DNA of 64,000 bases from Siphonodentalium dalli. Taxonomy: Eukaryota; Mollusca; Scaphopoda; Gadilida; Siphonodentaliidae. Shown piece by piece: positions 270 through 57,990 of this stretch. A program made the translations under genes and the position numbers. The notes below the pieces were generated by a model. The model saw only the letters and a program-made list of their open reading frames with translations, made no database searches and was not told the DNA's origin. Numbering within the stretch: the stretch's first letter is position 1; each line of letters opens with the position of its first letter. Location of the stretch: assembly GCA_032622095.1 (NCBI GenBank), contig CP136066.1, forward strand, positions 96,493,319-96,557,318, given 5' to 3'.

Positions 270-272
270 TAA

Positions 273-383
273 TAGTCCAGGCACATTAGACATAAAAATG
301 AGAAAGTAAGGAAAAAAATCGGAGAAAGCTGATTTTTTTATATGTTTCCGGGACACACATTGCGGATAAAGTGTGAAAAGTTA
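273..383 (+). repeat. Left terminal inverted repeat, outer part
   Basis: It holds the first two conserved blocks (17 and about 29 identical bases) shared with the complement of 11850-11920. It is cut off at 383 by the insertion whose TA duplication sits at 382-383. Confidence 0.7.
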
Positions 384-810
384 TGGAATCCTATTACGGC
401 CACTTGCTAATGGCGCTTTCGGCGCACTTTTTGTCGCTTTCGGCGCATCGCGCCGAAAGCGCCGAAAGCGACAAAATGTGCGCCGATCGGCGCACTTTTT
501 GTCGCTTTCGGCGCTTTCGGCGCGCGCGCCGAAAGCGACAAAAAGTGCGCCATTAGCGTTGTTTCGGCGCGCGCCGAAAGCGCCGAAAGCGCCGAAAGCG
601 ACAAAATGTGCGCCGATCGGCGCACTTTTTGTCGCTTTCGGCGCTTTCGGCGCGCGCGCCGAAAGCGACAAAAAGTGCGCCATTAGCGTTGTTTCGGCGC
701 GCGCCGAAAGCGCCGAAAGCGCCGAAAGCGCCGAAAGCGACAAAATGTGCGCACCGCGCCGAAAGCGACAGAAAGTGCGCCATTAGCGCGGTGCGCCATT
801 AGGGCATGTA
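384..810 (+). mobile_element. GC-rich hairpin MITE, left copy (inner end truncated)
   Basis: It starts with the terminal repeat TGGAATCCTATTACGGCC after a TA. The body is built from a few GC-rich words (GCGCCGAAAGC, CGACAAAAAGTGCGCC, ATTAGCG) in alternating orientation, making back-to-back perfect hairpins. The opposite terminal repeat is missing and the word pattern stops near 805. Long ORFs on both strands here are by-products of the repeated words, not genes. Confidence 0.75.
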
Positions 811-3109
811 TACAATTAAGTATGTGATCAGCCCAGCAGGGGTGCCGGAAGAGGGGGCAGCTGATCCCCTGCCCTTGACCAAGGGGGCAGGACTTGCCCT
901 TTTTCTGGAGACAGAAAATGCTGTGTTTAATCTCGTGTTTTTATAGCAAAATGTAACTTTTTGGGTCCAAATACCACCAATTTCACAAGGAATATTAATT
1001 TTTTGTCAAAAACGGCCATAAAAACCGACAAATACCTTTAAAATAGGGATTTTTGCCACAATGAATTTATGGTTGTTTTTTCCGAGTTTGCGGAGAAAAT
1101 TTCCTTTTTTGGGCAGAAAAGTGCCATTTTTGTAGGCTCTCCCCCCCCCCCCGATGCCCTTGGATGCTCCCGGCACCTCAGTGCAGATCGGACATGGCCA
1201 TATGTGTACAATGTATAGGCCTATGTATCAATTTTAAAAGGGAGGGGCTGAATTTTGCTGTAGATACACCTCTAAATGCTATAATTTGTCATTATTCAGA
1301 TTTAAAATTATTTATTAATATGGTACTTAACACATGTATGAATTTTCACTATAAATGAGTCTAAATATAGTCAAGTGATTAGTATGCATACATTTGAGCA
1401 ACTTTTTAAGTGAGTGTTGCCGCATGTAATTAAATGTAATATAATGAAAAAGTCTGTTAATAATTGAACACCACAACTGACTGTCACTAGCTGTGATAGA
1501 CTTGCAGTGAATATATTGATTGAGTAATTGGCAATCATGAATATTTTTGTGGGACAAACCCCAGCTTCTGGCATGATTCAGGGTACGTTCATACGCTGGC
1601 AAGTTTGCAAGGTACATTTTTGTGGGCATTTCGTCATAGAAAACCACATGGTGCCAGAATATGAACGGAAATATGCACCTAACATGCATCTTTACCAGAG
1701 CGAAAGACATCGGAAGTAACATTTATATAGTTCCACTTGTACTACCAGTGCTACCTCCAAATACCTGTATGATTTATTCTTGTGAGATAATTTGCATGAT
1801 ATTTACAGGCAAATTCCGGTAGCATCGTTACCAGTGGAACTACAGAGATTTATTTCGCACGTATACTAGTAGTTAGCCCCCCAACTTTGGTCAAAAGTAT
1901 AACAGTTGGAAATTTCATACTTGCCAAAACATTAGTTGGAAATTTCACACCAACAATAGGTGAAATATGTTCTTGTAGTTTGATTATAAAACAATTTATT
2001 GGGGGGGGGGGGGGAAATGTTCCTATGTTTGGTAAAAACTTTGGACAGAAATGGTCATCAGTTGGAAATTTTCCAACCTTAGGGGGGGGTAACAGATTGG
2101 AAATTTCCAACACTTGGAAAGCTTGTGTCCTGGTCCCTCCCCCGTGGCCAGTCAAAAACTTCTAGTTAATTTAAGAAAACAATATTGTCATACATTTGGT
2201 CAACATTGTCATTGGAATTGTCATCAGTTGAAAATTTTCCAACCTAAGTGGGGGGTGTAGGGTTTAAATTTACAACGGTAGGAAGGCTTGAGGCTAGTGT
2301 AGATGTTACGATTTCAAAATTTTCTTGTTAAGATTTCTAAATTTTCGCACACCGGATCGAACCATGGTCGGCCCGGTGTGTCATTGCCCCACATCCACAT
2401 GGCCAATACAAAACTGCTAATTAGTTTAGCAAAACAATATTTTACTACATTTGGTCAAATTTGTGGACAGAAACGGTCATCACTTCCAACCTGAGGGGAG
2501 TATGAGGTTTGAAATTTTCAAATAACTAATAAATGTTCAGGTTAAAATATCTGTCAATGTTCTCATACCAGGAATATAGAAATATAAAACCATGGCTTAT
2601 GAATATATTAGAAATTAGGCCTGACTGAGGTTCAAGGGGGGGGGGGTGCAAATGGAATTATTCAAAAACTTGTGTTGGTCTGATTCTGACTAAAGGGGGG
2701 ATGCAGTTGGAATTTCCCAAGGTGGACACCCCCCCCCCCAAACATGTAGTTGAAATTGAAGTCAGAAGAACCCCTCCCCCCAGATTGTGCCATGAAACTT
2801 TACTCTGCATAGTGCTTGTAGAGATATTATTCCATCAGTGCAAAACATGGGAACTTTTTTTATGTTCTAACATGGAACTTTATAACATTGAACAAACAAG
2901 GCAGAGAACATGTTGGACTCTCCGTTACCACATCCCTGCATCCATGCGAATGGGGGGGGGGGGTTCAGGAGCTGTGGCTTTTGAAGTTCACTCACCTAAT
3001 TGTAATTCCATATTTCTGATAAAACTTATAGATAATTTCACGGTGTGTAAAATTTAGAAAAAAATTGTCAACAATAAACGCCTCCATTTTAATGGCATAC
3101 AGAAGTTAC
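811..3109 (+). repeat. Passenger DNA: TTGGAAATTTCCAA-family repeats with poly-C/G tracts
   Basis: No gene is seen. Positions 1850-2520 are an inverted, diverged copy of the 722-bp unit at 35819-37260, sharing landmarks such as the palindromic GGCCCGGTGTG segment and TTGGAAATTTCCAAC. Homopolymer runs occur at 1141-1152 (C), 2001-2014 (G), 2636-2646 (G), 2729-2739 (C) and 2952-2963 (G). Positions 811-1840 are AT-rich with no recognised feature. Confidence 0.6.
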
Positions 3110-3111
3110 TA

Positions 3112-3535
3112 TGGAATCCTATTACGGCCACTTGCTAATGGCGCTTTCGGCGCACTTTTTGTCGCTTTCGGCGCATCGCGCCGAAAGCGCCGAAAGCGAC
3201 AAAAAGTGCGCCATTAGCGTTGTTTCGGCGCGCGCCGAAAGCGCCGAAAGCGACAAAATGTGCGCCGATCGGCGCACTTTTTGTCGCTTTCGGCGCTTTC
3301 GGCGCGCGCCGAAATAACGCTAATGGCGCACATTTTGTCGCTTTCGGCGCACCGCGCCGAAAGCGCCGAAAGCGACAAATAGTGCGCCGTTACGGCGCAC
3401 TTTTTGTCGCTTTCGGCGCTTTCGGCGCTTTCGGCGCGTTACTAATGGCGCACTTTTTGTCGCTTTCGGCGCTTTCGGCGCATCGCGCCGAAAGCGCCGA
3501 AAGCGCCATTAGCAAGTGGCCGTAATAGGATTCCA
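3112..3535 (+). mobile_element. GC-rich hairpin MITE, complete copy
   Basis: It has perfect terminal inverted repeats of about 40 bases (TGGAATCCTATTACGGCC onwards) with TA on both sides. The interior repeats the same GC-rich words as the 384-810 copy in inverted pairs and can fold into a chain of hairpins. It is 424 bp and non-coding. Its composition is strikingly GC-rich against the AT-rich surroundings. Confidence 0.8.
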
Positions 3536-3537
3536 TA

Positions 3538-3640
3538 AAAAGTCCCCGCGAATCCGAGTTGAGCTTTTTTAGTTATAGCGTTTTTTTGATGAAAAAAAAA
3601 ATTGAAAAAAAAATTCGACCCAGCTCCATATTTCTCATTC
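3538..3640 (+). repeat. Left terminal inverted repeat, inner part
   Basis: This continues the left terminus of the Academ-like element after the insertion. AAAAGTCCCC and AATCCGAGTTGAGC match the complement of 11796-11830, followed by A/T-rich imperfect similarity. Confidence 0.65.
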
Positions 3641-4238
3641 TTATTCGCCTTAGTAGGGTGAGAATCATAAATATCGTGCTGAATTATATTGAGAATACAT
3701 ATCCCCAACAGAAAATGCCAACTTTGTACCAATCCTCACACTCAATGGTGAAATATTCACGAAAATGTACAAAATTACGAAAAAAAAATTAATTGTTTTC
3801 ATACACACAACGGTACACAACGTCCATTAAATCAAATCTACGACTACTTTGGGAGTTAAATTATATATCAAAAATTGCAGAAAAGCAGTGGCTTTATAAT
3901 GATATATAACAATAGTCATTTATTCCATAATGAACTGGTGAAACGTGTGAAATATTAACCATACCCCCTAAACTCAAATTCAAACGGCATCGACTTTTCT
4001 CATTCAATTTCCTGATGAAAGTCGTTCAAGGCTATATTGCATCAAAAAGAGCGTTGTTCGCCTACACTCAAGATGCATTGGCATGTAATGTGTGCACGCC
4101 CTTTATAAACAAATTTGTTACGACAACGCTCTTTAATTCCGCATTCCAGGTCTGTCCATTGCACAATTTGCTCTGTTCAGTATTGGACACTCCGCATTTG
4201 ATGCCTAGATATTGAAACCAATGATCCCTTGATAGATA
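3641..4238. other. Transposon interior without recognised features
   Basis: AT-rich sequence between the left terminal repeat and the internal inverted repeat. I see no convincing ORF or repeat. Confidence 0.5.
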
Positions 4239-4261
4239 CATATGGGGACATGACAATCTGC

Positions 4262-4671
4262 GGAATGGGATGGAATATGGAATAGAACGACAATCTGCGG
4301 AACAGAATTTCAAATTGCGTGGAACGGCCGATATCTCGAGGAATACAGGGCGTATGGCGCTCATGTTGGTGTCTAACGAAAGGCCCACATTCGCCCTATC
4401 CACACATATTAACCCCGCCACTGACCGGACACCAGAAGTTGCATTATTTGATCGAAAACTGACCTAACATGGGGTGAAATTTGGGATAGCATGGCAATCT
4501 GCGGAACGGAATTTCAAATTGCGTGGAACGGCCGATATCTCGAGGAATACAGGGCGTAGGGCGCTCATTTTGGTGTCTAACGAAAGGCCGATATTCGCCA
4601 TATCCACACATATTAACCCCGGACACCGGAAGTTGCATTATTCGGTCGAAAACTGACCTAACATAAAATGC
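4262..4671 (+). repeat. Two tandem 204-bp units (left arm)
   Basis: Units starting at about 4270 and 4474 share CAATCTGCGGAAC, GTGGAACGGCCGATATCTCG and GAAAACTGACCTAACAT. Each unit is open in one frame for up to about 65 codons. That is a consequence of a 204-bp (68-codon) period without stops and is weak evidence for a protein. Confidence 0.75.
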
Positions 4672-6355
4672 CACAAACACGAAAAACTGCGTTCGACATT
4701 AATGTTTAGAATTTAGATTTCTCGACGAATACGCTAGCAAACACCAAGTTTTAGGTATCAAATAACGCAGTGGAATACTGTGCACTCGTTTTTATCTACA
4801 ATATGGCTGTTTTAGTGCGAAAACTGTAATAGCGAAACGCAAACAAGCGCCGATAAAACAGCTAAAAATAGACTCGATGTTTACATTTACACGATCGATT
4901 TCAGCTGGTATATTCAATATAATGGGGCGTATAGTATATCAAAATGTAGGATTAGACACAGGGAATGTATTTTTTTCCAAATGGGTCCACCACGCGGTGA
5001 AATTGTTGCAGAAATTCGCTCCAAAATATTCGCACTTCAGTTGTGACTAAAAGCCCAGATGCCGGAGCCCGGCGACTAAAAGCCAAGTTACAAAATAGAT
5101 TAACTGGTTTGAACGCATGAATATGTCAATGGTCAGACTGTTGGAAATAATACCCAATTTTTTTTATAGACTTATATAAACACTTACGTGTGAAACTCGA
5201 ATTTTAATTAAATCCATGATTGTGTAGTCTCTCGTATATCACGAACACTGCGCGCACACATTTTATTGGAATACATGCCATCTTTGCCTTGTGTTTTGTT
5301 TAGTTTAGTTTTTTTGGCGACCAAAGATGAGATGTGTTCGCACCACACTGTGCTAAGGCCAATGAAATCACTGAATTTCAGATTATCAGCTTAACCGCAT
5401 TATTTCATTAGTATCTGAAGCAAATTAATGAACACCATAAACAATAGAAAATTAACACAGCTCTTCGTGCGGGATAATCTTTAAAGCCAGTGACACCTCA
5501 GTCATCCTGACAGACTGTACAAACATAATGATAATGGGGCATTATGCATCATGAATATTTTTGTTAATTGGAATTGTCAAATCTAACATGCATGTTGTGG
5601 CTTCTAAGTAAACAAATTACCAGTTTTTTTAAATGGAGGCATGATGTTAAAGGACTCTTAGTTGCAATTAAGACCCTCGCAATAAATGCTTCAACAAACG
5701 CTCTTTATTGACTACCCTATACATGTTCTATGTATACTATAGGGCGACTGTATATACACAGACGGTATAGATAACTTTTAAGAGTGTTAACAATATTTTA
5801 TTAGAACGAAAAAACAGAACGTCACATTTACAATGTATACATAGAAAAATAACAAATAGTTCAAATGGCGATATGATAACAAGCAACAAGCAATATTCAT
5901 GCGTTCAAACCAGTTAATCTATTTTGTAACTTGGCTTTTAGTCGCCGGGCTCCGGCATCTGGGCTTTTAGTCACAACTGAAGTGCGAATATTTTGGAGCG
6001 AATTTCTGCAACAATTTCACCGCGTGGTGGACCCATTTGGAAAAAAATACATTCCCTGTGTCTAATCCTACATTTTGATATACTATACGCCCCATTATAT
6101 TGAATATACCAGCTGAAATCGATCGTGTAAATGTAAACATCGAGTCTATTTTTAGCTGTTTTATCGGCGCTTGTTTGCGTTTCGCTATTACAGTTTTCGC
6201 ACTAAAACAGCCATATTGTAGATAAAAACGAGTGCACAGTATTCCACTGCGTTATTTGATACCTAAAACTTGGTGTTTGCTAGCGTATTCGTCGAGAAAT
6301 CTAAATTCTAAACATTAATGTCGAACGCAGTTTTTCGTGTTTGTGGCATTTTATG

Positions 6356-6767
6356 TTAGGTCAGTTTTCGACCGAATAATGCAACTTCCGGTGTCCGTTC
6401 AGTGGCGGGGTTAATATGTGTGGATAGGGCGAATATCGGCCTTTCGTTAGACACCAAAATGAGCGCCCTACGCCCTGTATTCCTCGAGATATCGGCCGTT
6501 CCACGCAATTTGAAATTCTGTTCCGCAGATTGCCATGCTATCCCAAATTTCACCCCATGTTAGGTCAGTTTTCGATCAAATAATGCAACTTCTGGTGTCC
6601 GGTCAGTGGCGGGGTTAATATGTGTGGATAGGGCGAATGTGGGCCTTTCGTTAGACACCAACATGAGCGCCCTACGCCCTGTATCCCTCGAGATATCGGC
6701 CGTTCCACGCAATTTGAAATTCTGTTCCGCAGATTGTCGTTCTATTCCATATTCCATCCCATTCCGC
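6356..6767 (-). repeat. Two tandem 204-bp units (right arm, inverted)
   Basis: Inverted copies of the 4262-4671 units. They are candidate subterminal or regulatory repeats because they sit just upstream of the transposase gene. Confidence 0.75.
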
Positions 6768-6790
6768 AGATTGTCATGTCCCTACATATG

Positions 6791-6987
6791 TAATTTTGCC
6801 TGTTGTTGATTATTAGAGTCTTGTGTTATTTGTAGAACTGATCAGTTATGTTGTTGGCATATCACTTAGCGTTACCTGTTGATACCTTACGGTGACAACG
6901 AAGCAGGTCCGCACATTGATATCTGTTCTGTGGTATTGTACTTGAGTTTATTGTGTCTATCATCTTTTTTCTGTTGTGACTTTGGCA
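6791..6987 (+). promoter_or_regulatory. Presumed 5' leader/promoter of the transposase gene
   Basis: A non-repetitive stretch between the inverted-repeat arm and the first ATG of the transposase. No clear TATA box or initiator can be singled out, so the role is inferred from position only. Confidence 0.3.
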
Positions 6988-9942
6988 ATGGATAAATGTA
7001 TCAAATGTAACGATGAGTTGACCGGCTCGTCCGGAATAACTACACTTGGTGAGCGGGGTATAGAAAAGTTGGTTGCTGTAAGCGTCGAGCTTGGCGATAA
7101 TCTTTTTGCCGGTTCGAAGAAACCCACAGTTGGTGAGAAAATTCACAGATTCTGCTACAAGAATTATACACGGGAAAGTTCTGTAAGAAAAAGTAATAGA
7201 ATGTCTCTAGATGCAGCTGAATCTGACGAAGCTGGTCCATCTATGACAAAAAAATTGCGCTCTGATCAAGATGCTTTCAATTTTAAACTCCATTGTCTGT
7301 TCTGTGGAGAATCCGCCGACAAACAAACTCATATACCCGTTCAACGTAGAAGAGAAGTCCACACCGTTGAAACATTGACTCTTGTTGATAGTATCAGAAC
7401 CCGTTGTTTGAAACGTAGTGATGAATGGGGTGAGTCTGTACTTACTCGGATCGGTCGTGCTATCGATCTAGTGGCCGAGGAAGGTCGGTATCACCATGAT
7501 TGCTGGACAGGATTTGTCAGAGATAAGCCTGAGCGAACTCTTTCACGGGGTAGGCCTGTTGCAGACAAGAAAGCACTTGCATTCCATGAATTGTGTACCT
7601 TTATGGAGAACAGCGATGAGTGTCAGTTTTCCTTGAGCGAATTGGCAGAGACGTTTGAATCGTATCTTGGTGACGAAGTCGGTTACACAATTAAACATCT
7701 TAAAACCAAACTGCTTGAGCATTTCGGTAGTAGAATCTCTATTACAACACTGAGGTCCCTAAAAAATGTTGTCACATTCAGAGATTCATCAGACAAAATA
7801 CTATATGATTCGTGGTACTCAGACAAATGTACCAATGAAACCGATGAACGTATGCGCATCGTCAAGAAAGCATCGGCTATAGTCCGCGATGATATTCGGT
7901 CAACCATTTACGAGTGTGACGTTTATCCCAAACCCGATTCGTTATCTGTATCTAGTGATCTACTACCCGATACACTCCAAACCTTGTTACAAGGGATTGT
8001 TGCTCCGTCGCAGCGTGGGCAAAACATCCAAGCCAACCAGAGACGCGTGACAGCCATAGGTCAGTCTCTAATAAGTTCTTGTCGGCCCCGTTCATTCTTG
8101 TCACCAGTATTATTGTCGGTAGCAGTTTACATACATAGGAAATTCGCATCTCGGGAATTGATCGACATTCTGAATGGACTAATGTTCTCTTCTAGCTACC
8201 GGGAAGTTCAACAATACGTTCATTCTGTCATGATAAGCAAAGGTCCGTCGCCTAGACTTGCGAACTTCACACAATTCGTTTTCGATAACGCCGATTGTAA
8301 TGTGCGCACGCTAGATGGCAAGAATACTTTCCATAGTATGGGAGGCATCGCCTGTATAACTCCAAGCAGAGATCACACAGAAGAGTCTCCGATAAAACGA
8401 CTAACTGGTGATCATTCGAATATTGGCTCTGGTGAATTCGGGTACATCCCTTTGAAAGGTTACAGTAAACCAAGCAAATCGGGTCTTGACGAAATTGTGA
8501 TGAAGGATTTATCAACATTGGGTGAATCTGATCCGAAAAATTTGAAACTCGCAAAAACAGTCGACAGTCTTTGGTCTTTGACGCATGTACTGAGAGTACC
8601 TTGCCCATCTTGGGCTGGATATATGCACATTGTCACATCATCAGATGATTATGAAACAAGTGATGTCGAGATACTTCCCTTTATTAATTTTGATCCATCC
8701 AACCCGAGCACAATTTACACTGCTCTCATGTTTGCACAAACTGAATGTGAGAAACAGGGACTGAACGTTTGTCCAGTGACGTTTGACCAACCACTTTATA
8801 TCAAAGCAGTGGAGATTGTGTCTTCGTCAGATAAGTTGACAAAAGTTTTCGTTAGACTCGGCGGCTTCCATATGATTATGTCATATTTAGGGGCAATTGG
8901 TTCGATCATGGCTGGTAGCGGCTTGGATGAACTTTGGAGGACTGTTTATGCTGGTGGGTCAATCCATCATTTGATCAGTGGTCATGCATATTCAAGAGCA
9001 GTTCGTGCCCATTTGCTAACACAAATTGCCATTACAAAACTTGTGTTTGAAGAAAGCCGAACACTAGATAACATAGACTGCACAGAAGTCAATGAAATAT
9101 TCTGTGGACTTGCCAGAGGTGACTGTACAACAGCTGACGCTGTCAATCAAGAAAGTGTCAACCATCTACTGTCAAAATTACACGAACTGCTCCAGAATGC
9201 GTCCGTAGGACGCACAGGAAAGCTTTGGGTACAATACTACGAGCAAATAGGTCTTCTCCAGTTGTTCTTGAGAGCAGAGCGCACAGGCGACTGGGAACTC
9301 CACACATATTGTGTTCGCAATATGATTCCAGTATTTCACGCAGGTGGTCATTTTGCATACGCAAAAAGTTCTCATCTCTATTTGCAGCAGATGAATGAGC
9401 TAACAGAAATAATGCAACAGGATGATTTGAAGTTGTTCACTGAGAAAGGTTACTTTACCATAAGGCGCTCAGATAAATTCTGGGACGGGATATATTCTGA
9501 TCAGACCATAGAGCAGTGTTTAATGAGAATGTTCAAGCTCCCTGGTGGTCTCACACATGGCAGGGGAATAACCGATAGCACTGTTGCGAAATGGGTACAT
9601 GGACTACCTCTTTGCCTTCCGATATGTAATGCTCTCGAAAATTTTGTTAATGTTCACACTGGTCATGGCGAACAACATCGGGATCTCCGTCAAAGTTCAC
9701 AATTGACTGATGCCAATGATATCACCAAATTATTGAACTGGCTCAGAGTGCATTCCCCCTTTCAGATTAGAGATCCACTACAATTAGTCTCTATAGCGAC
9801 CGGGTTTGTGGCCGACGAAACTGTGAACTGTGACCAAGTTCGCAAAATTGGTGAATGTTGCGTATCGAATGTTGTAAGCAAAACGTTCAACAGCATCAAA
9901 CTACGACGTGTTGACACTGTGAAGTCCGTGGAAGTAAGGTAG
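6988..9942 (+). CDS. Academ-like DDE transposase
   Basis: A 984-residue ORF counted from the first ATG (6988); an upstream in-frame GTG at 6976 is less likely as a eukaryotic start. Two zinc-binding modules open the protein: C4-x2-C7 with H53-x2-C56, and C103-x2-C106 with H169-x2-C172. An RNase H-like core is suggested by FVFDNADCN (D433), FDQP (D600), then GDWELH (D768/E770) followed by the FHAGGHFAYAKSSHLYLQ block. These give candidate catalytic D, D and E residues. LPGGLTHGRG and AKWVHGLPLC follow near the C-terminus. The likely role is cutting and joining transposon ends in the nucleus. The nuclease/CXC region follows immediately in another frame and may belong to the same polypeptide. 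The ORF is intact over nearly 3 kb, which argues for recent activity. The family call is from motif layout and recollection of Academ. Confidence 0.75.
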   Translation: MDKCIKCNDELTGSSGITTLGERGIEKLVAVSVELGDNLFAGSKKPTVGEKIHRFCYKNYTRESSVRKSNRMSLDAAESDEAGPSMTKKLRSDQDAFNFKLHCLFCGESADKQTHIPVQRRREVHTVETLTLVDSIRTRCLKRSDEWGESVLTRIGRAIDLVAEEGRYHHDCWTGFVRDKPERTLSRGRPVADKKALAFHELCTFMENSDECQFSLSELAETFESYLGDEVGYTIKHLKTKLLEHFGSRISITTLRSLKNVVTFRDSSDKILYDSWYSDKCTNETDERMRIVKKASAIVRDDIRSTIYECDVYPKPDSLSVSSDLLPDTLQTLLQGIVAPSQRGQNIQANQRRVTAIGQSLISSCRPRSFLSPVLLSVAVYIHRKFASRELIDILNGLMFSSSYREVQQYVHSVMISKGPSPRLANFTQFVFDNADCNVRTLDGKNTFHSMGGIACITPSRDHTEESPIKRLTGDHSNIGSGEFGYIPLKGYSKPSKSGLDEIVMKDLSTLGESDPKNLKLAKTVDSLWSLTHVLRVPCPSWAGYMHIVTSSDDYETSDVEILPFINFDPSNPSTIYTALMFAQTECEKQGLNVCPVTFDQPLYIKAVEIVSSSDKLTKVFVRLGGFHMIMSYLGAIGSIMAGSGLDELWRTVYAGGSIHHLISGHAYSRAVRAHLLTQIAITKLVFEESRTLDNIDCTEVNEIFCGLARGDCTTADAVNQESVNHLLSKLHELLQNASVGRTGKLWVQYYEQIGLLQLFLRAERTGDWELHTYCVRNMIPVFHAGGHFAYAKSSHLYLQQMNELTEIMQQDDLKLFTEKGYFTIRRSDKFWDGIYSDQTIEQCLMRMFKLPGGLTHGRGITDSTVAKWVHGLPLCLPICNALENFVNVHTGHGEQHRDLRQSSQLTDANDITKLLNWLRVHSPFQIRDPLQLVSIATGFVADETVNCDQVRKIGECCVSNVVSKTFNSIKLRRVDTVKSVEVR

Positions 9943-11294
9943 TGATTGACCCCACAATTCTGTTCAACCGCATCACATGTGTTATTCAGTCACAAGCAGA
10001 GATGGAAGAGTATCTCAAATATGAACTCGCCCCGAAACCAACAGCATTGTTTGATTCTGCTGGAATGAGGAAGACACAGAAAAGCACGCTCGGTAAGATC
10101 CTCAAAACATACGGTTCCGAGCAAACTAAAATCCCAGAACATTCTCTGTTTGTTGTAGATGGTGGATTTTTATTGAGGGCAGTTGTATGGCCTAAACAGT
10201 CGTCATATAAGGACATATGTACATCATATTCCAATTATCTAGTGAGACATTTTGGGGCGAACGTCGTGGTTGTTTTTGATGGTTATGCTTGTACAATGTC
10301 GACAAAGGGCATGGAACAAGCCCGTAGATCTAAAAACAGGTATTCCATTGATATCAATATCTCACCCGAGTTACCAGCCACCACACCCCAATCCGATTTC
10401 CTTGCAAATGCCAAGAACAAAACCCAACTGATCGATCTTCTAATGCAGGAGCTATCTGCTATCAATATTCAGTCCAAGCAGGCCGAGGCTGATGCTGATG
10501 TACTGATAGCCGAAACTGCACTTGACATCGCTCAAGATGACAACAATGTTGTCGTTGTGGGAACAGACACAGACTTGTTAGTCATTCTTACCTCTCGAGT
10601 TCAACCGGGATGTAATATTCACATGATGTATTCCATTACCCAAAACTTACTAGTTTCAGTTAGTGAAATAGCAACCTCCTTGTAGCACATTCTATAAGTG
10701 GTTGTGACACTACTTCTGCACTCTTTCGAGTTGGTAAGAAGAAAGTATTCAGTACAATTGTCTCCGATGTTACTAGCGACTCACAACAGTATGTCAACAC
10801 AATTTTGGCGGATGACAGTACACCAAGTGCAGTAGCCGCTACCCGGGGAACAACTTCTCCTGATCTTATACGGGAGTAAAACTGTTTCCTCTCTCGACCA
10901 ATATAGATATGTCACTTACAAGCGTTATGTTGCAAAATCTAAACTGAATAAACCCATCGACCTAGCCTCACTCCCACCAAGCAGCGATGCTGCACAACAA
11001 CATGTCTACAGATGTTATCTCCAGGTCCAACAATGGCTGGGCACTTCGCTTCCTCCGACGGATTGGGGGTGGTCGCTAGACAATGGACTTCTTGTACCGA
11101 CTGCAGCCACAAAGCCATGTGCCCCCGATAACCTACTGAATCTGATCAGTTGTGGTTGCAAGAGTGCTTGTACAAAAAGGTGTGGGTGTAAGAAGGCAGG
11201 ACTCTCTTGCTCAGGTTTGTGTAATTGCAGTTCGGATTCTTGTAACAACCACAGAAACACTGTCCTGTCGGAAATTTCTGAGTTCGATGAATAA
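9942..11294 (+). pseudogene. XPG/FEN-like nuclease plus CXC domain, frame-broken
   Basis: The first part (9942-10685) has the acidic motifs of FEN/XPG nucleases: VVDGGFLL, VVVFDGYA, the EADADVLI acidic cluster and VVVGTDTDLLVIL. After the stop at 10683, coding continues one frame over (10679 to about 10855) with the HSISGCDTTSALF motif. It then returns to the first frame (to 11294) with LYGSKT, an LQVQQWLG block and a nine-cysteine CXC cluster (11151-11243, spacing C-x-C-x3-C-x3-C-x-C-x6-C-x3-C-x-C-x4-C) like Tesmin/TSO1 DNA-binding domains. The nuclease could trim transposition intermediates and the CXC could bind DNA. VIDPTILFNRI, before the first internal Met, reads as coding, so the transposase frame probably once ran into this one. 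A 56-nt GTAAGG...TTCAG intron (9934-9989) would also join them in frame. Confidence 0.65.
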
Positions 11295-11699
11295 TATGTA
11301 TATAGGTCATGTCATTTCTGTATATAGCGTTGATAATAGTCAATGTAACTTAATCCATGTTGATTGATTTGTACATCGAAAATAGTTGAGTTCTCATGCT
11401 GACGAATTTTATGCCAAAAGGGGAACTCGGCCAGAAGCAGAGGGGGTCTTCCATAATGTCTATTTTGTAAGCAATGATAAAAGTCTTCAAATGGTGGTGG
11501 ATTTTTTATCGTCTGTCCAACTAACATCCCGTTCTGTACTACGACCCTTTGGGCAAATCCGTTAGGAAAATCGTAATTTTTTGCGTAAATCCGATACTTT
11601 TTTGTGAATTTTCAATAATTTTTCGCAGAAATTGTCACAGAATGCACATTTTCCTCTAGGTAAATGTATATTAGACATTATGTAGCTCGAAATACGCCT
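11295..11699. other. 3' untranslated part of the transposon
   Basis: AT-rich DNA between the CXC stop codon and the right terminal repeat. No gene or repeat is recognised. Confidence 0.4.
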
Positions 11700-11920
11700 A
11701 AACAAAAAATACAGTTGGATCAATTCGAGGTTACAAAGTTCGTGCGATTTTTTTTGATTTTTTTCAAACGCGTTTTCGAAAAAAGGCTGTAGAAAAAAAA
11801 GCTCAACTCGGATTTTAGGGGACTTTTGTCTAATCGTTCAGTGACATGTACTCGACATTCCCTGAAAAAATCAGCTTTCTCCGATTTTTTTCCCTAGTGA
11901 AACCTAATGTGCCTGGACTA
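11700..11920 (-). repeat. Right terminal inverted repeat
   Basis: The complement reads TAGTCCAGGCACATTAG, GGAAAAAAATCGGAGAAAGC and AAAAGTCCCC with AATCCGAGTTGAGC, matching 273-383 plus 3538-3640. The flank begins TAA. Confidence 0.7.
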
Positions 11921-11926
11921 TAAGTT

Positions 11927-12040
11927 TATATTTTAACTCTAACTTAATATTTTAACTCTAACTAAATATTTCAATTCTAAGTTAATATTTTAATTCTAAT
12001 ATTTCAATTTTAACTCAACATTTTAACTCTGACAATTTGT
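11927..12040 (+). repeat. AT-rich ~20-bp minisatellite
   Basis: Degenerate tandem copies of a unit like AATATTTTAACTCTAACTTA directly follow the transposon's right end. Confidence 0.7.
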
Positions 12041-12404
12041 ATTTTTGCATTCCGGTAAATTTGCCATTCGTAAAACTACTTCGTACTCAACAGACTTTCA
12101 AATAATGGGAAAATTGTTACCTTATTCTTCGACTCGGAGACTAACAACAACATTTTGGGTACAGTATCCCTTTAATATTTTTATTTCAATGTTTTAATTG
12201 TAGCTTCAAAGTAAGAAGCTAAATACAAATCTACTACTAAAAGATATAATGTTGGAATTAAAATATTATAATTCAAAAGTTGAAATTGGAATGAACATAA
12301 AATTTATCTCAGAATTGAAATGTAAATATTAAAACAAACATAAAACGGATATATTGAGTTGGAATTGTGACCCGAATGTTCCGCGTATACATTCTATAAC
12401 AATT

Positions 12405-12506
12405 CTATCGAAAGAGGTCGCGGAAATTGCCTATCTCACAAGCTTTCTCAGTGTCGCTATCCTTGTCGATGCGTGATGCGGCGTTTCTGTTGGATCTTAT
12501 TTGTCC
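12405..12506 (-). CDS. Candidate terminal exon of an unknown host gene
   Basis: On the complement a strong acceptor (TTGTTCTCCCAG) precedes an open frame of 33 codons ending in TAG. Only this frame stays open for the whole length. The coding start is phase 0 and the residues are hydrophilic (GQIRSNRNAASRIDKD onward, ending FRDLFR). A TTTATT on the plus strand near 12179, read as AATAAA on the minus strand, could serve polyadenylation. It may belong to the same minus-strand gene as the 44986-45109 exon, but the phases do not fit directly, so further exons would be needed. The protein is not recognised. Confidence 0.35.
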   Translation of the reverse strand, partial: GQIRSNRNAASRIDKDSDTEKACEIGNFRDLFR

Positions 12507-13151
12507 CTGGGAGAACAATGATTACTGTTGTCAATAATTTGATGGTTATTTTTAAATTGCATCTATATATACAAGGGGCGTTTCAGACAGGAACATAATA
12601 ATAATTATAATATAATAATAAATAATTATGTTGAGATGTATTTCAAGCCATATATGGTAGTAAAATGTTCGATTATATCTGTTTTCAAGCATTTGCTGAA
12701 TATATTTCTTTTATATAATACAGGAATGGGTCGACAAGTATTATATCATGTTATGAATTTCTACTTGATGTTCTGCATGACGTGTAACATTATAGCATTC
12801 AACACACAACGCAGGGAATGTATCAATTGTTAGTACTTGTTCCTTAATAATATATTTCACAGTGGGGGCTATGGTACCAACTCCAGATTGCATGATTTTT
12901 TGCCATGTTTGTGAGTCGATATCTCAATAAACATTGAAATGATTACCCGCAAGAAATTTCACGATTTTAAGAGATGCCAATTAGACTTGGCTCAACAAAT
13001 TGACCTATTCTATTTCAAGTATGCAATCTCGAGCTGCATGGAACCTACATTTACTGTGGAGTACCGGTGCATAATTATTAACTAAGGAACAGGTATTATT
13101 CCTAAGAAATATATTATAAACTTAATTCCCTGTCAGAACGTGAACAAATTA
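12507..13151. other. No gene seen
   Basis: AT-rich single-copy sequence; nothing recognised on either strand. Confidence 0.4.
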
Positions 13152-13409
13152 TCATGATTTGAACTGGTGGATTATGAACTTTAACGGACTGGAAACAAGA
13201 AAGTGAACGCCCGTTTGAATCTGGATGTAACTCATTTCAGAGTTGATATCACCTAAATCCGTGGACAAATAAATCAGCTGCGTTTGGCTCAGGTAAACTA
13301 ATTTGGCTGGTTTTGGCATTTCCGCGCACATTGTATAACAATTGGAAGCATTATATGTGGATCGGAAAGTGGTGAAATCCTCGCAATTCGACCCGATTCG
13401 AATAATCAT
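13152..13409 (-). CDS. Candidate exon or ORF, unknown protein (85 aa)
   Basis: An open frame on the complement begins with ATG directly after a good acceptor (ATATCCTTTTCAG) and ends at a stop at 13152. The product begins MIIRIGSNCEDFTTF and ends FIIHQFKS. Base composition is more balanced than the flanks. I do not recognise a domain. It could be a host terminal exon or a piece of an unidentified mobile element. Confidence 0.35.
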   Translation of the reverse strand: MIIRIGSNCEDFTTFRSTYNASNCYTMCAEMPKPAKLVYLSQTQLIYLSTDLGDINSEMSYIQIQTGVHFLVSSPLKFIIHQFKS

Positions 13410-13452
13410 CTGAAAAGGATATCAAAATCCCCACTCGAGGACGCTCTCTTCG

Positions 13453-13930
13453 GTGAAAAGGATCTCTGGAAGACCTCAACAAAGTAATTTATCACTACAG
13501 AGTTTGAGTATGACAGCGACCAGACGATACTGTTCTCCCAAGTCGCGGACGACCTCAATATCCAGCACAAAGAAAACACTTACATCAGCCGAGTTGGTTA
13601 ATTTGGCAAGAAGCTCTGAGCAGTTCTCTCAGAAATGTACTGATGCACAGTTACCAAAACATGAAGAACCAATTGTAGACCAAATAAAATCCCAACTCAC
13701 CGAACTGGTAAACAGCGGGGTAAAAAGAGCCGTTGCCGATGTTGTCTACCATGCATGGAAATGTATAGAAAGCAGTTGAAAGTTCAATGAATGCCCTTTC
13801 TGACTCTATAAATAACCTCCATTCCAATGTGAAACAACTGAGGGAAACAAACAACCAACTGATTGGAAATGCACAACAATCCGATAACGACGACGTGAAA
13901 GAAGCACAGTATACAGACAAGAAAACCATA
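13453..13930 (+). pseudogene. LINE ORF1-like N-terminal/coiled-coil relic
   Basis: A first frame (13453-13779) gives a Ser/Thr/Arg-rich start, then a helical stretch including EEPIVDQIKSQLTELV. A one-frame shift near 13765 continues with SMNALSDSINNLHSNVKQL and RETNNQLIGNAQQ. The heptad-like pattern across the shift suggests a coiled coil, as in the first ORF of many LINE elements. Similarity ends around 13925, where a dispersed repeat beginning ACAAGAAAACCATA takes over. The matching C-terminal part may be 14899-15339. No intact product is possible. Confidence 0.4.
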
Positions 13931-14560
13931 ATCAGAAATGGTAACGCCCTCACGATCATATTATTAGCCATAAATATAAATTATAATATAAAATATATTG
14001 GTTACATGAATTCACCGCCTCAGAATTCCGTTAAAACAACTAATCCTTCGAATTATTACAAAAACTACGGCTTATTACTGCAGGTTTCTCATTCACCACA
14101 CCATAAAGCTTCTAAATGCGGATCAAAAATCGGAGGTATTGTGTTCCGGTCAAGAGTGCATGGTCCAGCCATTGTTCATACCTAAATATTGAAAGCAATT
14201 AACGCGGTCATAATGATTACATACTGCAACTCTAAGACATCCAGCGGATACACACCCCCACGAAAACCCGAAATGTGTTGTCCTGCGAGAAATCCCATCG
14301 CTATACAGTAATGCCCTAAGTAATCGACTTCTTAACCACAGGATGCAGAATTATGGGTAACTTTTCAGGATTTAGTCGGAAATATGGCTTGTTGCCATTC
14401 ATCGGAAAGCTCTCGGGGCTCAATTTGACACGGCCAGATTAGCATTCCTACAATATCCATAAATAAGATCATATATTATATACCCATGATTTTAATTATA
14501 GAATATAAAATATATTGGTTTCGCGAATGACCAACTCAGAATTCCGTTAAAATAACAATA
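13925..14560 (+). repeat. Dispersed repeat, two partial copies
   Basis: The words ACAAGAAAACCATAATCAG and AAATGGTAACGCC recur at 59050 and 63867 (as CATAGTCAG). The following stretch with AAAATATATTGGTT and CAGAATTCCGTTAAAA recurs at 14468-14560. This interrupts the LINE ORF1-like region. No gene is seen from 14190 to 14898. Confidence 0.55.
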
Positions 14561-22164: not shown

Positions 22165-23640
22165 TAGCTGCCAATCCGCACTCAATCGCGTCTTTTTTCA
22201 AATTAAAGTTTGTTTATTTATGATTGGAAGCATTTCTAACAGCTCTCCTGAATCAAATTCCGACGTTTGGAGAAACTTGTCAGTTGCACAGGGACGTGGA
22301 CACGTGGGTTGGTTGGTGTTTCAACCCCCATCCCAACTTGGGTTAATTGCCAAAAGTTGGAGATCTCATTCCTGACACAACCTTAGTTGGAAATTGACAT
22401 CAGCTATAGGTTGGAATTATTCGCATTGGATGATTTTCCAACCAGTAATTAGTGGGGAATTTTGGTATGAATTGGTCATCAGTTGGAAATTGTCTAATCT
22501 TAGGGTGTGTCAGGTTGGATATTTCCTAGGGGTGTGCAAATGGAATTCTGCGAACCTGGGAGTTTGGTGTCTGGTTCAAGGAGTATGCAGTTGGAAATTT
22601 GAAGGTGGACCCCCCCCCCCCCCCCCCCCCCCCTATGGGAACACTCTAGCCACGTCCCTAGAACTTGTTCGTGAGGGTATTTAATAAAAATTAATTGACT
22701 GACATTTCGACTATAGTCCTGCGACCCTAGAATAAGCTTTATTTTTATGTTTGTGCGATTGAGAGATGCAGTTCACATGCAATCAAGACCAGTCTTTGTA
22801 AACATGCACCCAGAGTCATATGGTTTCTATTTTATATGTGGGTATGTAGTTTACTCAAGACTGCCACAAGACCACAGCAATAGCTATATGTACCGGTACC
22901 TCAAAGCTTTATTTTCCAACTAATGCAGAGCACTTGGGCCACACAAGTGACTGTGGTCGATACTATACATTCAGAAACTGATGTGCGAAACGACTGCATT
23001 TAACGAAAAAAAAATTAAATATGGAATTGTTATAAGACTAGATAGTACATATATGTATCTGATAATCCATATATAAATATAATATAATCCTACTATTTCT
23101 CGAATAAGAAGGAACATATAATTACGAACAGTGTAGAAGATACATTCAGGTTTGTGTGAATTCGATCATACAATGATGACGTTATTCACCGAGTTTAGTT
23201 GAAATCGACATGTGTGCGGGCGACATTTTATGGATGGAATTATTTTATGAAATGGACATGAAGAAATTGACAGTGAAATTCACAAGCTTCGCCATCAACG
23301 GAAGGTCTCCCCCGGCGTTACTATCAGTAATGGCTAATTTCAGAAAAATTCTCCAAGTTTACACCCGACAGCACAAATTTTCTCCTTATATTAAATAATT
23401 TGATATGGATGGTTCATATTCTGCAACAATTTGTACCCTGCAAGGGACGGGTTCGTATGTTTTATTGGGTTTTAAAACTGCGAGGTGAGAAAATCTCGGT
23501 TTGTTTACATTATTAATGTTCTGATTCCGATTACGGAATCAGAATAAGATTACCACGAAATAACGATTACGGTCTGTTCGTTTACGGAACCATATTGTAC
23601 GGAGTGTAATCGGTAATCAATAATCGGAATCAAACCAAGA
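22165..23640 (+). repeat. Diverged, rearranged copy of the 33691-38408 element
   Basis: 22165-22640 follows the left arm of the 4.7-kb element (GTTTGTTTATT, TCCTGAATCAAATTCCGA, ACTTGTCAGTTG, ACAGGGACGTG, then the TTGGAAATT section and a C run at 22610-22633). 23455-23640 is an inverted match to 34850-35010 (AATCTCGGTTTGTTTACAT, ATTCCGATTACGGA). The 22700-23450 part is unassigned. Confidence 0.6.
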
Positions 23641-33690: not shown

Positions 33691-36600
33691 GAGCCGTAAT
33701 TTCGCTAAAATCCGGATTGAGAATCCAAAGCCGATTACGGGGGGCGGAGCTAATTTCGGATTCTAGGTCAGATTTTGAAATCCACGTGGTCTCCGAAAAT
33801 CTCTCCCAGCGTCAAACATGGCTCATGTATTTGACAAAAGTATCATTTGTATCTTATATTTATAAAGTGCATGTTTGTTGTGAAATCATGCTTTTCGTCT
33901 ATGTGTATATACACGGCACATAATTTGCTGCAAATCCGACTTAATCGCATCTTTTTTTTTCAAGTTAAAGTGTGTTTATTAATGTTGGCAAGCATATCTA
34001 AACATGACAGCTCTAGGCCTCCTGAATCAAATTCCGAAGATGTTGCGAAGAACACACAAAACTTGTCAGTTGAACAGGGACGTGACGACAGGTGTTGCTT
34101 GGGTGTCTCGACCCCCACCCCGATTTTTGGTACAATTTGCTAAGCTGTGCAGTCATTCATACGTGAGGAAAATCAGGATTATTTTGACTAACTGTTTCAA
34201 ATAATGATACGTACAAGCCAACAAACGCAACAAACAAACAAACCCGATTTTAAATAAATACATATACAAACTTAATTATGACTAACTCGGGAGATCGAGG
34301 GGGTGTCCAGTGATCTGTATATATGTTCAACTTGTTTTGGTAGTCATGTTGCTTTGCCATTACTAATTATTTATTTTTTCAGTGTAATAACATTTGGGAG
34401 AGGGGGTACCCTTAAGTGAGTCAGTACTTGTCCCCCAATTCCTTTGTATGTATAAACAAATGTATGTGTTATATATCATGTGTTATCTAAATTTGACATA
34501 TATTTGAAATAAATATATCTAAACTAAACTTTGGTACATTCCAGCAGTCGGAAATTTCATGCATGACACAACATTAGTTGGACATTAATTTGACACCATA
34601 TATAGGTTGGCATTGTTCTCATTGTTTGATTTTTTTCAACCAGTAAAAGTTGGTAATTTTCCAATCTTAGTGTTTGTCAGATTGGATATTTCCAAGGGGA
34701 GCAAATTGAATTCGGCGAACCTGTGAGATTGATGTTTGGTTCAAGGGGGGGAAGTTTGTGGTCTGAGGCGTTATTTCGCTAAAATCAGATTCAGATTCTG
34801 GATTCAGATTACAGATTGGTCCCCGTACGACTTGGTTCGGCAAAAGAACAGACCACAAATTTGCAGAATCAGTAAACGAACAGACCGTAATCCTAATTTC
34901 GTGGTAATCCGATTGGGATTTGGATTCCGATTACGGACTCAAATGTTCATAATGTAAACAAACCGAGATTTCGCCACCTCGGAGTTTAAAAACACAATAA
35001 AACATAAGAATCCGTCTCTTGTGTACAAATTATTGCAGAATATAAACGATCTATACCAAAGAATTTTAAATGCGGAGACAAATTTGTTTTATTGAATGTA
35101 AACTGAGAGAATATTACTGAAATTAGCCAAATAATAACGCTATTGATAGTAACGCTGGGGGAGCACTTCGGTTGATGGCGAAGCAATTGTAAATCATAGT
35201 TGATTGTCACTTTCATATGTCCATTTCATAATTCCATCCATAAATACCGCACGAACGCATGTCGATTTCGAATTCGGCGGATACGTCACCATTGACCGAA
35301 TTCATATGAACCTGCATGGATTGTCTTCTGCTGTGTTCGTAATTATAATGTTTCTTCTTATTCAAGAAATAGTAGGATTATATATATATATGATATCGAT
35401 GGATTATCAGATACACGTATGTACTATCATCAGGGATGTGGCTAGAGGGTCTCCGCTGGGGGGGGGGGGGGTGTTCACCTTGGGAATTTCCAACTGCACC
35501 CACCCCCCTTTGAGTCGGAATCACACCAACACAACTTTTTGCATAATTCCATTTGCACCCCCCCCCCTTGTACCTCATGCTCAGGCCTAATTTCCTATAT
35601 ATTCATAAGCCATGCTTCTGTTTTCCCAGTATGAGAACATTAAGATATTTTAAACTGAAAATTGCCCCCAAAAAAACAACTAGTGATCTAATTCCAGACA
35701 AATGCACACAGCTGCCGACAACAGACCAGGAAACACAGGGCCGACCATGGTTGTTTGGCCCGGTGTGAGAAAATTTTGAAAACTATATACAAGAAAATCG
35801 CAAATCCTAGCATCTAGACTGGCCTCAACTGAAGCTTTCCTAGTGTTGGAAATTTCAAACCTCATGCTCCCCCTCAGGTTGGAAAATTCTTCAACTGATG
35901 ACCATTTATGTCTACAAGTTTGACTAAATGTAGTAAAATATTGTTTTGCTAAACTAATTAGCAGTTTTGTATTGGCCATGTGGATGGGGCAATGACACAC
36001 CGGGCCGACCATGGTTCGGCCCGGTGTGCGAAAATTTTGAAATCTGAACAAGAAAATCGCAAAATCCTAACATCTAGACTAACCTCAAGCCTTCCTACTG
36101 TTGGAAATTTCAAACCCTACACCCCACTTAGGTTGGAAAATTTCCAACTGATGACAATTCCAATGACAATGTTGACCAATTGTATGACAATATTGTTTTC
36201 TTAAATTAACTAGAAGTTTTTGACTGGCCACGGGGGAGGGACCAGCACACAAGCTTTCCAAGTGTTGGAAATTTCCAACCTGTCACCCCCCTAAGGTTGG
36301 AAAATTTCCAACTGATGTCCATTTCTGTCAAAATTTTTGACCAAAAATAGGAACATATGCAAATATTGGTCGAAAAACAATAAATTGTTTTATAATCAAA
36401 CTACAAGAACATTTTCAACCTATTGTTGGTGTGAAATTTCGTTGTGGCAGGTATGAAATTTCCAACTATTGAAAATATAGCTCTCTGCTGGGGGGGGGGT
36501 GAGACACCCCACACCCCCCCCCCTCTAGCCACATCCCTGACTGGCCTCAACTGAAGCTTTCCTAGTGTTGGAAATTTCAAACCTCATGCTCCCTTCAGGT

Positions 36601-38408
36601 TGGAAAATTCTTCAACTGATGACCATTTATGTCTACAAGTTTGACCAAATGTAGTAAAATATTGTTTTGCTAAACTAATTAGCGGTTTTGTATTGGCCAT
36701 GTGGATGGGCAATGACACACCGGGCCGACCATGGTTCGGCCCGGTGTGCGAAAATTTTGAAATCTGAACAAGAAAATCGCAAAATCCTAACATCTAGACT
36801 AACCTCAAGCCTTCCTACTGTTGGAAATTTCAAACGCTACACCCCCACTTAGGTTGGAAAATTTCCAACTGATGACAATTCCAATGACAATGTTGACCAA
36901 TTGTATGACAATATTGTTTTCTTAAATTAACTAGAAGTTTTTGACTGGCCACGGGGGAGGGACCAGGACACAAGCTTTCCAAGTGTTGGAAATTTCCAAC
37001 CTGTCACCCCCCTAAGGTTGGAAAATTTACAACTGATGTCCATTTCTGTCAATTTTTTTTAACAAAAATAGGAACATATGCAAATATTGGTCGAAAAACA
37101 ATAAATTCCCCCCAATAAATTGTTTTATAATCGAACTACAAAAACATTTTTGTTGGTGTGAAATTTCGTTGTGGCAGGTATGAAATTTCCAACTATTGAA
37201 AATATAGCTCTCTGCTGGGGGGTGAGACACCCCCACACCCCCCCCCCCCTCTAGCCACATCCCTGACTATCATCTAGTCTTATAGCAATTTCATGTTTCA
37301 TCTTGAAAATATTTTGTTTTGTTTAATGCAGTCGTTTTGCACAATAGTCTATGTATAGACAACAGACATATGTTCTAGGGACGTGGTTAGATGTTTCCTC
37401 AAATTTCAGGCCAACTGCACACCCCCCCCCCCCCCCCCCCCCCCCCCATTGAACCAAACATCAATCTCACAGGTTCGCAGAATTCCATTTGCTCCCCTTG
37501 GAAATATCCAACCTGACAAACACCAAGATTGGAAAATTACCAACTTTTACTGGTTGAAAAAAAAAATCAAATGTACCAAAGTTTAGTTTAGATATATTTA
37601 TTTCAAATATATGTCAAATTTAGATAACACATGATATATAACACATACATTTGTTTATACATACAAATAAATTGGGGGACAAGTGCTGACTCACTTAAGG
37701 GTAAGTATATATTATTACACTGAAAAAATAAATAATTAGTAATGGCAAAGCAACATGACTACCAAAACAAGTTGAACATATATACAGATCACTGGACATC
37801 CCTCTCCCGACTTAGTCATAAGTTTGTATATGTATTTATTTAAAATCGGGTTTGTTTGTTGCGTTTGCTGGCTTGTAAGTGTCATTATTTGGAACAGTTA
37901 GTAAAAATAATCCTGATTTTCCTCACGTATGAATGACTGCACAGCTAAGCAAATTGTACCAAAGTTTGTGGTGGGGGTCGAGACACCCAAGCAACCCCTG
38001 TCGTCACGTCCCTGTTCAACTGACAAGTTTCCTGTGTTCTTCACAACATCTTCGGAATTTGATTCAGGAGGCCTAGAGCTGTCATGTTTAGATATGCTTG
38101 CCCTCATCAATAAACGCACTTTAACTTGAAAAATAAGATACGATTAAGTCGGATTGGCAGCAAATTATGTGCCGTGTATATACACATAGAAGAAAAGCAT
38201 GACTTTCACAACAAACATGAACTTTATAAATATAAGATACAAATGATACTTGTGTCAAATACAAGAGCCATGTTTGACGCTGGGAGAACATTAAACGTAG
38301 TTTCGGAGACCACGTGGATTTCAAAATCTGACCTAGAATCCGAAATTAGCTCCGCCCCCCGTAATCGGCTTTGGATTCTCAATCCGGATTTTAGCGAAAT
38401 TACGGCTC
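33691..38408. mobile_element. 4.7-kb element with ~1-kb terminal inverted repeats
   Basis: 33691-34752 and 37433-38408 are inverted copies, beginning GAGCCGTAATTTCGCTAAAA at the left and ending with its complement (one mismatch beyond the first bases is possible). The arms include the poly-G/poly-C junctions. The middle (34753-37432) holds two tandem 722-bp units and GATTACGGA-rich DNA. No gene with a recognisable domain is present, so it is a non-autonomous or fold-back type element. No clear target duplication was found. Confidence 0.75.
35819..37262 (+). repeat. Two tandem ~722-bp units
   Basis: CTGGCCTCAACTGAAGCTTTC starts at 35819 and again at 36541. Both units run through GGGCCGACCATGGTTCGGCC, repeated TTGGAAATTTC words and end in a C run before CTCTAGCCACATCCCTGA. 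The 1850-2520 region is a diverged inverted relative. Confidence 0.85.
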
Positions 38409-38416
38409 AGGGGGTC

Positions 38417-38779
38417 TAACAATTTTTTTTCTTAAGTAGAGACCATATACTGGCTCATGAGCATGGCCTCTATATTTGTTCATGATTTTCCCATGGGAGC
38501 CCAAAATCGGACATAGGCGACTATAGTATTTTTTTTTACATATATCCCGAACATTGTTCCCTACGTTATCCCAAAAGGTAGCAAATTGTGATTAACTTGG
38601 TTATTATACGTGTTAGCTAATTAACTGACAGCTACGTTTTATTCTGTTTGTCCCACGAAAAATTCATTTTAAAGTTGCAGCATGGAATTTTGCGGAGAAC
38701 CTCCTTTGTGATTCTGGCAATATTGTTGAAAGGAAATGGGCAGTACTTTGAGACGGAACTGAGACGAACCATGATATGT
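38417..38779. other. No gene seen
   Basis: AT-rich DNA with some resemblance to 33420-33480; nothing firm. Confidence 0.35.
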
Positions 38780-57397: not shown

Positions 57398-57990
57398 TAT
57401 CAGATTGTGATAGCTATTCAAATAAATTATGCTGGTATGTTGATGCCAAACTGGGCAGTGGATGAATAGTTAGTATTGTGCAAGCAGACATTCCAGCTAA
57501 CCGACTATTAAATTAAGATCAAATATGCGGGCATTGAAGTGGGTACATGCACAGTCGGTCCATATGGCCCATATATGGTTATTTGTTTATGGGCCTGTTT
57601 TGGACACCCATGCCTCAACCACAGGCATAATTTCTTTGCAGCATGAAGGGAACAAGAATGTTTACTTGTTATGTATCTGACCAAATGCTTGAACAACTTC
57701 AAGATAAAGAAAATGAATGAGCCTAACAAAAACTGAAATTGAGTTAAAATAATTTAATATCTATATTAATAAAAGAAATAATAGTAATATATAGACAAAT
57801 ATTGTTCTTATTCCAATCATAAATATCGCATAAATAGCATGTTATTGTCAAGATCGTAAGCCATGTTAATTAAATAAAATCCATCTGATAATGTACAGTA
57901 CGTAAAATGTGTGCGAATCGCAAAACACTCAATATAACGGGGGGACTTCCACTGAGTGAAAGGTTAAAATTGCCACCAAATTGAATACAA

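Follow-up and report, generated by a model that had tools for sequence, protein, structure and literature searches.

The window analysed here, a stretch of 64,000 nucleotides from the scaphopod mollusc Siphonodentalium dalli (GenBank assembly GCA_032622095.1, contig CP136066.1, forward-strand positions 96,493,319 to 96,557,318; coordinates below count from its first base), holds a DNA transposon with matched ends that spans 273-11920 (11,648 bp). Between these ends lie a long transposase-like open reading frame (ORF), nuclease-like sequence spread over three frames and a cluster of nine cysteines, together with two nested insertions (Table 1). Judged from its sequence, the element appears to be a degraded, once autonomous cut-and-paste DNA transposon of the AcademX type, about 5.9 kb long without the insertions, a reading to which we give a probability of roughly 0.85.

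Table 1. Features of the transposon, its flanks and a dispersed repeat in the window.
Feature	Position	Strand	Basis or remark
Left TAA, presumed target duplication	270-272	.	same triplet as 11921-11923
Left terminal inverted repeat, outer part up to nested insertion	273-381	+	17/17 and 27/27 blocks versus 11865-11920; 376-381 is AAAAGT
Nested insertion 1	382-3537	.	AAAAGT, 6-bp duplication, at 376-381 and 3538-3543
Left terminal inverted repeat, inner part	3538-3589	+	83% complementary to 11776-11827; 3538-3543 is the second AAAAGT
Nested insertion 2, fold-back-like	4245-6782	.	8-bp duplication TACATATG at 4237-4244 and 6783-6790
Transposase-like protein, 984 aa	6988-9942	+	uninterrupted ORF
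5' nuclease (FEN/XPG-like) core, first frame	9915-10685	+	PF02739, E=0.0015 and 0.00064, below cut-off; alignment with T5 D15, PolA and Xni
Nuclease, second frame, HSISGCDTTSALFRVGKK	10673-10864	+	resembles 5' nuclease helix-two-turn-helix with Asp
Nuclease C-terminal part, third frame	10836-11294	+	ends in the CXC cluster
Nine-cysteine CXC-type cluster	11151-11249	+	CxCx3Cx3CxCx6Cx3CxCx4CxN
Right terminal inverted repeat	11776-11920	-	pairing with left repeat
Right TAA, presumed target duplication	11921-11923	.	same triplet as 270-272
Dispersed G/C-run repeat pieces	1878-2739, 35461-37202, 22332-22622, 34527-34646, 62078-62135, 63252-63400		BLAST

The element bears terminal inverted repeats, as Academ transposons do. 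Its first bases, TAGTCCAGGCACATTAG at 273-289, are the reverse complement of 11904-11920 at all 17 positions, and a block further in (312-338 versus 11865-11891) matches at 27 of 27; when up to four substitutions were allowed, the sole further match to the terminal 17-mer in the window carried four. The transposon with matched termini that a first-pass annotation had drawn at 273-11920 is thereby borne out, except that its single span left the two nested insertions unseparated and that its left terminus (273-383) was cut short, the left repeat being longer and resuming beyond the first insertion at 3538-3589. Of the TAA duplication claimed alongside it, the triplet itself is present on both flanks of this one copy, and a fourth base differs on either side. 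Its status as a target site duplication is no more than plausible: TAA occupies 14 of 175 positions in the AT-rich right flank (11924-12100), which puts its chance occurrence there at about 8%, and the right flank lacks the second arm of a palindrome described below. Directly at the right flank runs an AT-rich tandem array of 19-bp spacing (11917-12025), whose first in-register unit takes in the last four bases of the element.

The putative transposase lies in a frame (6946-9942) that is open over 998 codons, a length with a chance of about 1e-21, as (61/64)^998, and yields 984 amino acids from the ATG at 6988, so that the frame described as a nearly intact transposase is indeed open. The protein contains the motifs FDNADCN...TLDGKNTFHSMGG, TFDQP and LGGFHMIMSYLGAIGSIMAGSGLDELW, which resemble motifs known from animal proteins of the Academ-like transposase kind; by pattern only, D433, D600 and E648 are candidates for the catalytic triad. 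Its first 180 residues hold thirteen Cys and His (among them C4, C7, H53, C56, H102, C103, C106, H125, C140 and C172) that could form zinc fingers. The N-terminal part by itself drew three Pfam matches below cut-off (zf-RING-like, zf-BED and PHD_4), and none at E ≤10 came up for the middle part.

Nuclease-like and CXC segments together cover 9930-11294. In a MAFFT alignment with phage T5 D15, the 5' nuclease domain of PolA and Xni (ExoIX), the Asp of VVDGG pairs with an Asp in all three proteins, the DAD of AEADAD aligns to the E-A-D of the EADD motif, and both Asp of GTDTD align to TD.D of T5. In the second frame, T5 and PolA have an Asp, and Xni a Ser, opposite the Asp of SGCDTT, after which comes a VGKK turn. 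The acidic motifs stand in the same order as in these enzymes, and most, though not all, of the metal-binding acidic positions align, in a locus strongly diverged from them; a diverged FEN/XPG-type enzyme would be expected to look like this, but the pattern falls short of proving membership. A small profile built from T5 D15, E. coli PolA residues 1-324 and Xni scored the nuclease pieces, joined by X, at 12.5 bits; none of the shuffled controls listed reached this value (best 8.9 bits among 1,430 listed of 2,000), and the best transposase control piece scored -1.1 bits among 4 listed of 7. The 5_3_exonuc_N family (PF02739) matched the first-frame piece with 18.8 bits and a sub-piece of it with 19.9 bits (E-values in Table 1).

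Several observations weigh against this assignment. Both PF02739 matches fall under the family's cut-off of 34.3 bits, XPG_N and XPG_I are absent from the Pfam matches, and another nuclease-like family, NYN_YacP (PF05991), matches the same stretch weakly (E 0.033 and 0.013). Profile comparison by hhalign against the three proteins gave a probability of only 26.8%. Within the alignment, the Asp of VVFDG pairs with Asp in PolA and Xni and stands one column off in T5, the third acid of EADD is replaced by Val, and a gap stands opposite an Asp in GDLGD of T5. Besides, the second-frame piece (10673-10864) had no Pfam match by itself. Since only 5_3_exonuc_N matches, and below cut-off, we call the protein FEN/XPG-like and do not file it as a member of the family; the nuclease that had been proposed here stands by its acidic pattern and its PF02739 match, at that reduced rank. 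Among known 5' nucleases, the closest systems are T5 D15, the PolA domain and Xni, and presumably FEN1 and XPG.

The third nuclease frame ends in nine cysteines. In the CXC domain of MSL2, nine zinc-binding cysteines follow CxCx11Cx4CxCx6Cx2CxCx2C by residue numbers, and in CXC and pre-SET domains an Asn always stands two residues after the ninth (PMC3447885). The cluster resembles the CXC domains of MSL2, LIN54 and TSO1 in having nine cysteines in the same conserved order and an Asn two residues after Cys-9. It differs from MSL2 in four of the eight gaps between cysteines, the one from Cys-2 to Cys-3 measuring 3 residues versus 11 and the others deviating by one or two. A pattern covering both the cluster and the usual CXC spacing matched once in the six-frame translation of the window, which is no independent test, as the pattern was written to cover the cluster. 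Pfam placed no CXC family on it and returned only Metallothio_Euk (E 0.46) and CSRNP_N (E 2). We therefore label it CXC-type; the number and order of cysteines and the trailing Asn fit the CXC cluster of the first-pass annotation, which gained no profile match.

Almost half of the span between the element's ends, 5,708 of 11,648 bp (49%), is non-Academ DNA, made up of two insertions of 3,162 and 2,546 bp, each counted with one copy of its duplication; without them the element measures 5,940 bp. Insertion 1 begins with TATGGAATCC, ends with GGATTCCATA and lies inside the left terminal repeat. If its flanks are abutted, the repeat continues through AAAAGTCCCC to ATCCGAGTTGAGC. The right terminal repeat carries the AAAAGTCCCC stretch uninterrupted and so serves as an empty-site control. 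Without the insertion, the left repeat agrees with the right one in 139 of 158 ungapped columns, with several gaps in the alignment. The insertion comprises a GC-rich left unit of about 424 nt, a middle of about 2.3 kb and a right unit of 428 bp (3110-3537). This right unit is complete, palindromic and resembles a miniature inverted-repeat transposable element; as single-stranded DNA it folds extremely well, at -255.7 kcal/mol, which corresponds to a z of -36.7 relative to 100 shuffles. The left unit (382 to ~805) is a near copy of the left part of the right one, in direct orientation. The insertion thus looks composite and may have moved as a unit, since one 6-bp duplication encloses the whole. 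Kolobok elements duplicate 4 bp of their target. KolobokP, whose direct repeat units of about 450 bp (PMC9587614) are similar in length to those of insertion 1, was considered as its source and rejected because of the 6-bp AAAAGT duplication and because the left unit is without its right end. Insertion 2, running from GGGACATGAC to GTCATGTCCC, sits upstream of the transposase ORF. Its inverted arms of about 880 nt contain subrepeats at 204-nt spacing and are complementary at 100% over the inner 505 nt and 98% over the outer 382 nt, and the longest stop-to-stop frame listed wholly within it has 94 aa. This insertion is probably recent.

The coding frame shifts three times, near 9.94, 10.68 and 10.84 kb. 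The first shift separates the transposase from the first nuclease frame, the two open frames overlapping by nine codons (9915-9942), and the other two fall within the nuclease, so that 9942-11294 is not the single reading frame that had been assumed; the joining of transposase and nuclease holds in that both are adjacent, on the same strand and within the same ends. In its sequenced state, this copy is unable to produce a complete nuclease that includes the CXC tail, while the transposase ORF is still open. Small indels or sequencing errors seem a better explanation of the shifts than introns, because the peptides flanking them appear continuous; introns were set aside for the shifts inside the nuclease, where the peptides on each side abut. 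At the first shift, two natural ORFs may instead simply meet. It is conceivable that the shifts are assembly errors, or in the case of the first such a natural junction, and that the coding part is intact, a variant compatible with the AcademX reading. The continuous-looking peptides, the short C/G runs adjoining the third shift and the 998 transposase codons without a stop would all suit it. The two nested insertions, one of them in a terminal repeat, suggest instead an old copy, and we consider an intact coding part fairly unlikely.

How firmly the element can be tied to AcademX depends on its architecture, the length of the presumed duplication and motifs, which together make the assignment probable. 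The AcademX lineage of the Academ superfamily is reportedly treated by Kojima (2020) and by Kapitonov and Jurka (2010). We assume that the AcademX nuclease is of the XPG type. PMC10045372 itself uses the word 'nuclease'; it gives AcademX duplications of 3 or 4 bp and AcademH duplications of 9 or 10 bp, and ties this difference to the encoded nuclease and helicase. The present copy agrees with AcademX in combining a transposase with the accessory enzyme of that lineage, a nuclease, albeit diverged and frame-broken, and in its 3-bp flanking repeat. Its size of about 5.9 kb without the insertions is close to the mean of 5,565 bp for curated Academ elements from a bivalve survey (PMC10294476). It departs from AcademX in its broken frames, and the likeness is set by the description of the lineage rather than by sequence. 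With AcademH it would share the Academ superfamily and the possession of an accessory DNA enzyme. It differs in having a nuclease instead of a helicase, as no helicase family appeared among the Pfam matches, and the flanks already disagree at the fourth base, short of the 9 or 10 bp typical of AcademH (PMC10045372). KolobokE, KolobokD and KolobokP are likewise DDE transposons with an accessory nuclease, yet their nucleases have PD-D/ExK, DEDDh and His-Me finger folds and they belong to another superfamily (PMC9587614).

These lineages bring up the possibility that the locus represents a different or unnamed DDE superfamily that acquired an XPG-like nuclease, a CXC-type module and 3-bp duplications independently. 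Such a view would be consistent with the Pfam search of the full transposase, which gave no significant family (only zf-RING-like at E 0.064, below cut-off) and counts against AcademX as well, with an Academ likeness read from architecture and with catalytic residues chosen by pattern only. Zator, too, makes 3-bp duplications (PMC10045372), and several Kolobok lineages bear accessory nucleases of other kinds (PMC9587614). However, a transposase, a nuclease and a 3- or 4-bp duplication are the very combination stated for AcademX (PMC10045372), and among the matches listed from the literature on Academ and XPG transposons, in the excerpts available, it occurred in no other superfamily. We therefore regard an independent origin as improbable. 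No result points to another superfamily, and an Academ-like element with an XPG-like nuclease, as first annotated, is the best reading of the architecture and the 3-bp repeat, the transposase being the part without a significant Pfam match. That the nuclease forms a gene of its own or lies here merely by coincidence, a view to which the frame change between the two ORFs might lend some colour, is barely credible given that both lie on the same strand within the same matched ends, with frames overlapping by nine codons, and that, according to PMC10045372, AcademX encodes a nuclease.

Searches for relatives returned nothing that would strengthen the AcademX assignment. Back-translated patterns run over IMG/VR and GTDB genomes (viruses and prokaryotes) gave no relative that tblastn confirmed; the unconfirmed stretches matching them numbered 4 and 17 for the transposase, 18 for a conserved stretch of it, and 104 and 27 for the nuclease. 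The motif HA-x-SGCDTTS, used as a degenerate DNA pattern, hit a single IMG/VR contig, whose listed ORFs showed no such transposase or nuclease and which we dismissed as a chance match. XPG_I found nothing over the record of this contig, whereas four of 14 control genomes, all archaea, were positive. A nuclease piece searched against phages by tblastn had no match, PDB sequence searches had no relevant one, and Rfam and tRNA scans were likewise without a match. Two single-sequence AlphaFold models were too poor to be of use for a fold search (mean predicted local distance difference test scores of 37.7 and 36.2).

The left flank of the element is similar to each arm of a large imperfect palindrome elsewhere in the window, which starts near 61,986 and reaches at least 63,450, where the slice examined ended. 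Between the two arms, 607 of 765 columns are identical; the left flank agrees with the left arm in 188 of 260 columns (12-271) and with the right arm in 178 of 219 (50-268). The BLAST match of the flank to one arm covers 172 bp at 85.5% and runs as far as 62706. The palindrome is centred on GGACGCGCC-ATAAT-GGCGCGTCC with its dyad at 62705, and the left TAA of the element aligns to 62704-62706, so the element begins at the centre of symmetry. The right flank (11921-14000) had no BLAST match to the palindrome at E ≤1e-4 and is thus not the second arm, which counts against the TAA pair as a duplication, since it may be a chance one. The target may have been a single arm that stopped at this point; alternatively, insertion removed an arm, or the TAA pair arose by chance. 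One might speculate that AcademX integration is drawn to the tips of hairpins or cruciforms, with the structure-specific XPG-like nuclease aiming it; if a hairpin tip had broken and been captured on one side only, the second arm could be missing on the right, as it is here. We find this idea very doubtful, and the literature matches listed on transposons aimed at hairpins or cruciforms contained, in the excerpts available, nothing on Academ.

The rest of the window holds further repeats. Pieces of a dispersed family with G/C runs, 67-87% alike by BLAST, recur across it (Table 1), and a reverse transcriptase fragment at 57985-58635 (PF00078, E 5.3e-16) probably derives from a long interspersed nuclear element. 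Long stop-free frames on both strands of 38669-39809, rich in His, Thr, Ile and Tyr, probably represent a translated tandem repeat.

As to how an AcademX element of this kind might work, the transposase would bind the terminal repeats of roughly 150 bp through its N-terminal zinc-finger-like modules, the CXC module or both. Its RNase H-like DDE site would cut the transferred strand and carry out the joining with a stagger of 3 bp. The non-transferred strand would be left to the XPG-like nuclease, which may once have formed one polypeptide with the transposase: it may cut or trim that strand at its 5' end, or process flaps at the junctions with donor or target DNA. Tn7 offers an analogy for such a second-strand role, in that TnsA completes the cuts of TnsB. 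We know of no test of a split of cutting between a DDE transposase and a structure-specific 5' nuclease in one transposon. Any role of the nuclease in transposition is something we infer from what is, at this locus, a parts list, and this too tempers the reading.

The novelty that the first-pass annotation saw in the element is not supported: AcademX is already a named lineage (PMC10045372), and the bivalve survey alone provides 100 curated Academ consensus elements (PMC10294476). The copy described here is a damaged member of what is most likely this known lineage. To it, the copy adds a clearly bounded example in which the foreign insertions are separated and the acidic motifs of the nuclease are mapped, along with one oddity, a transposon end that lies at the centre of a palindrome.

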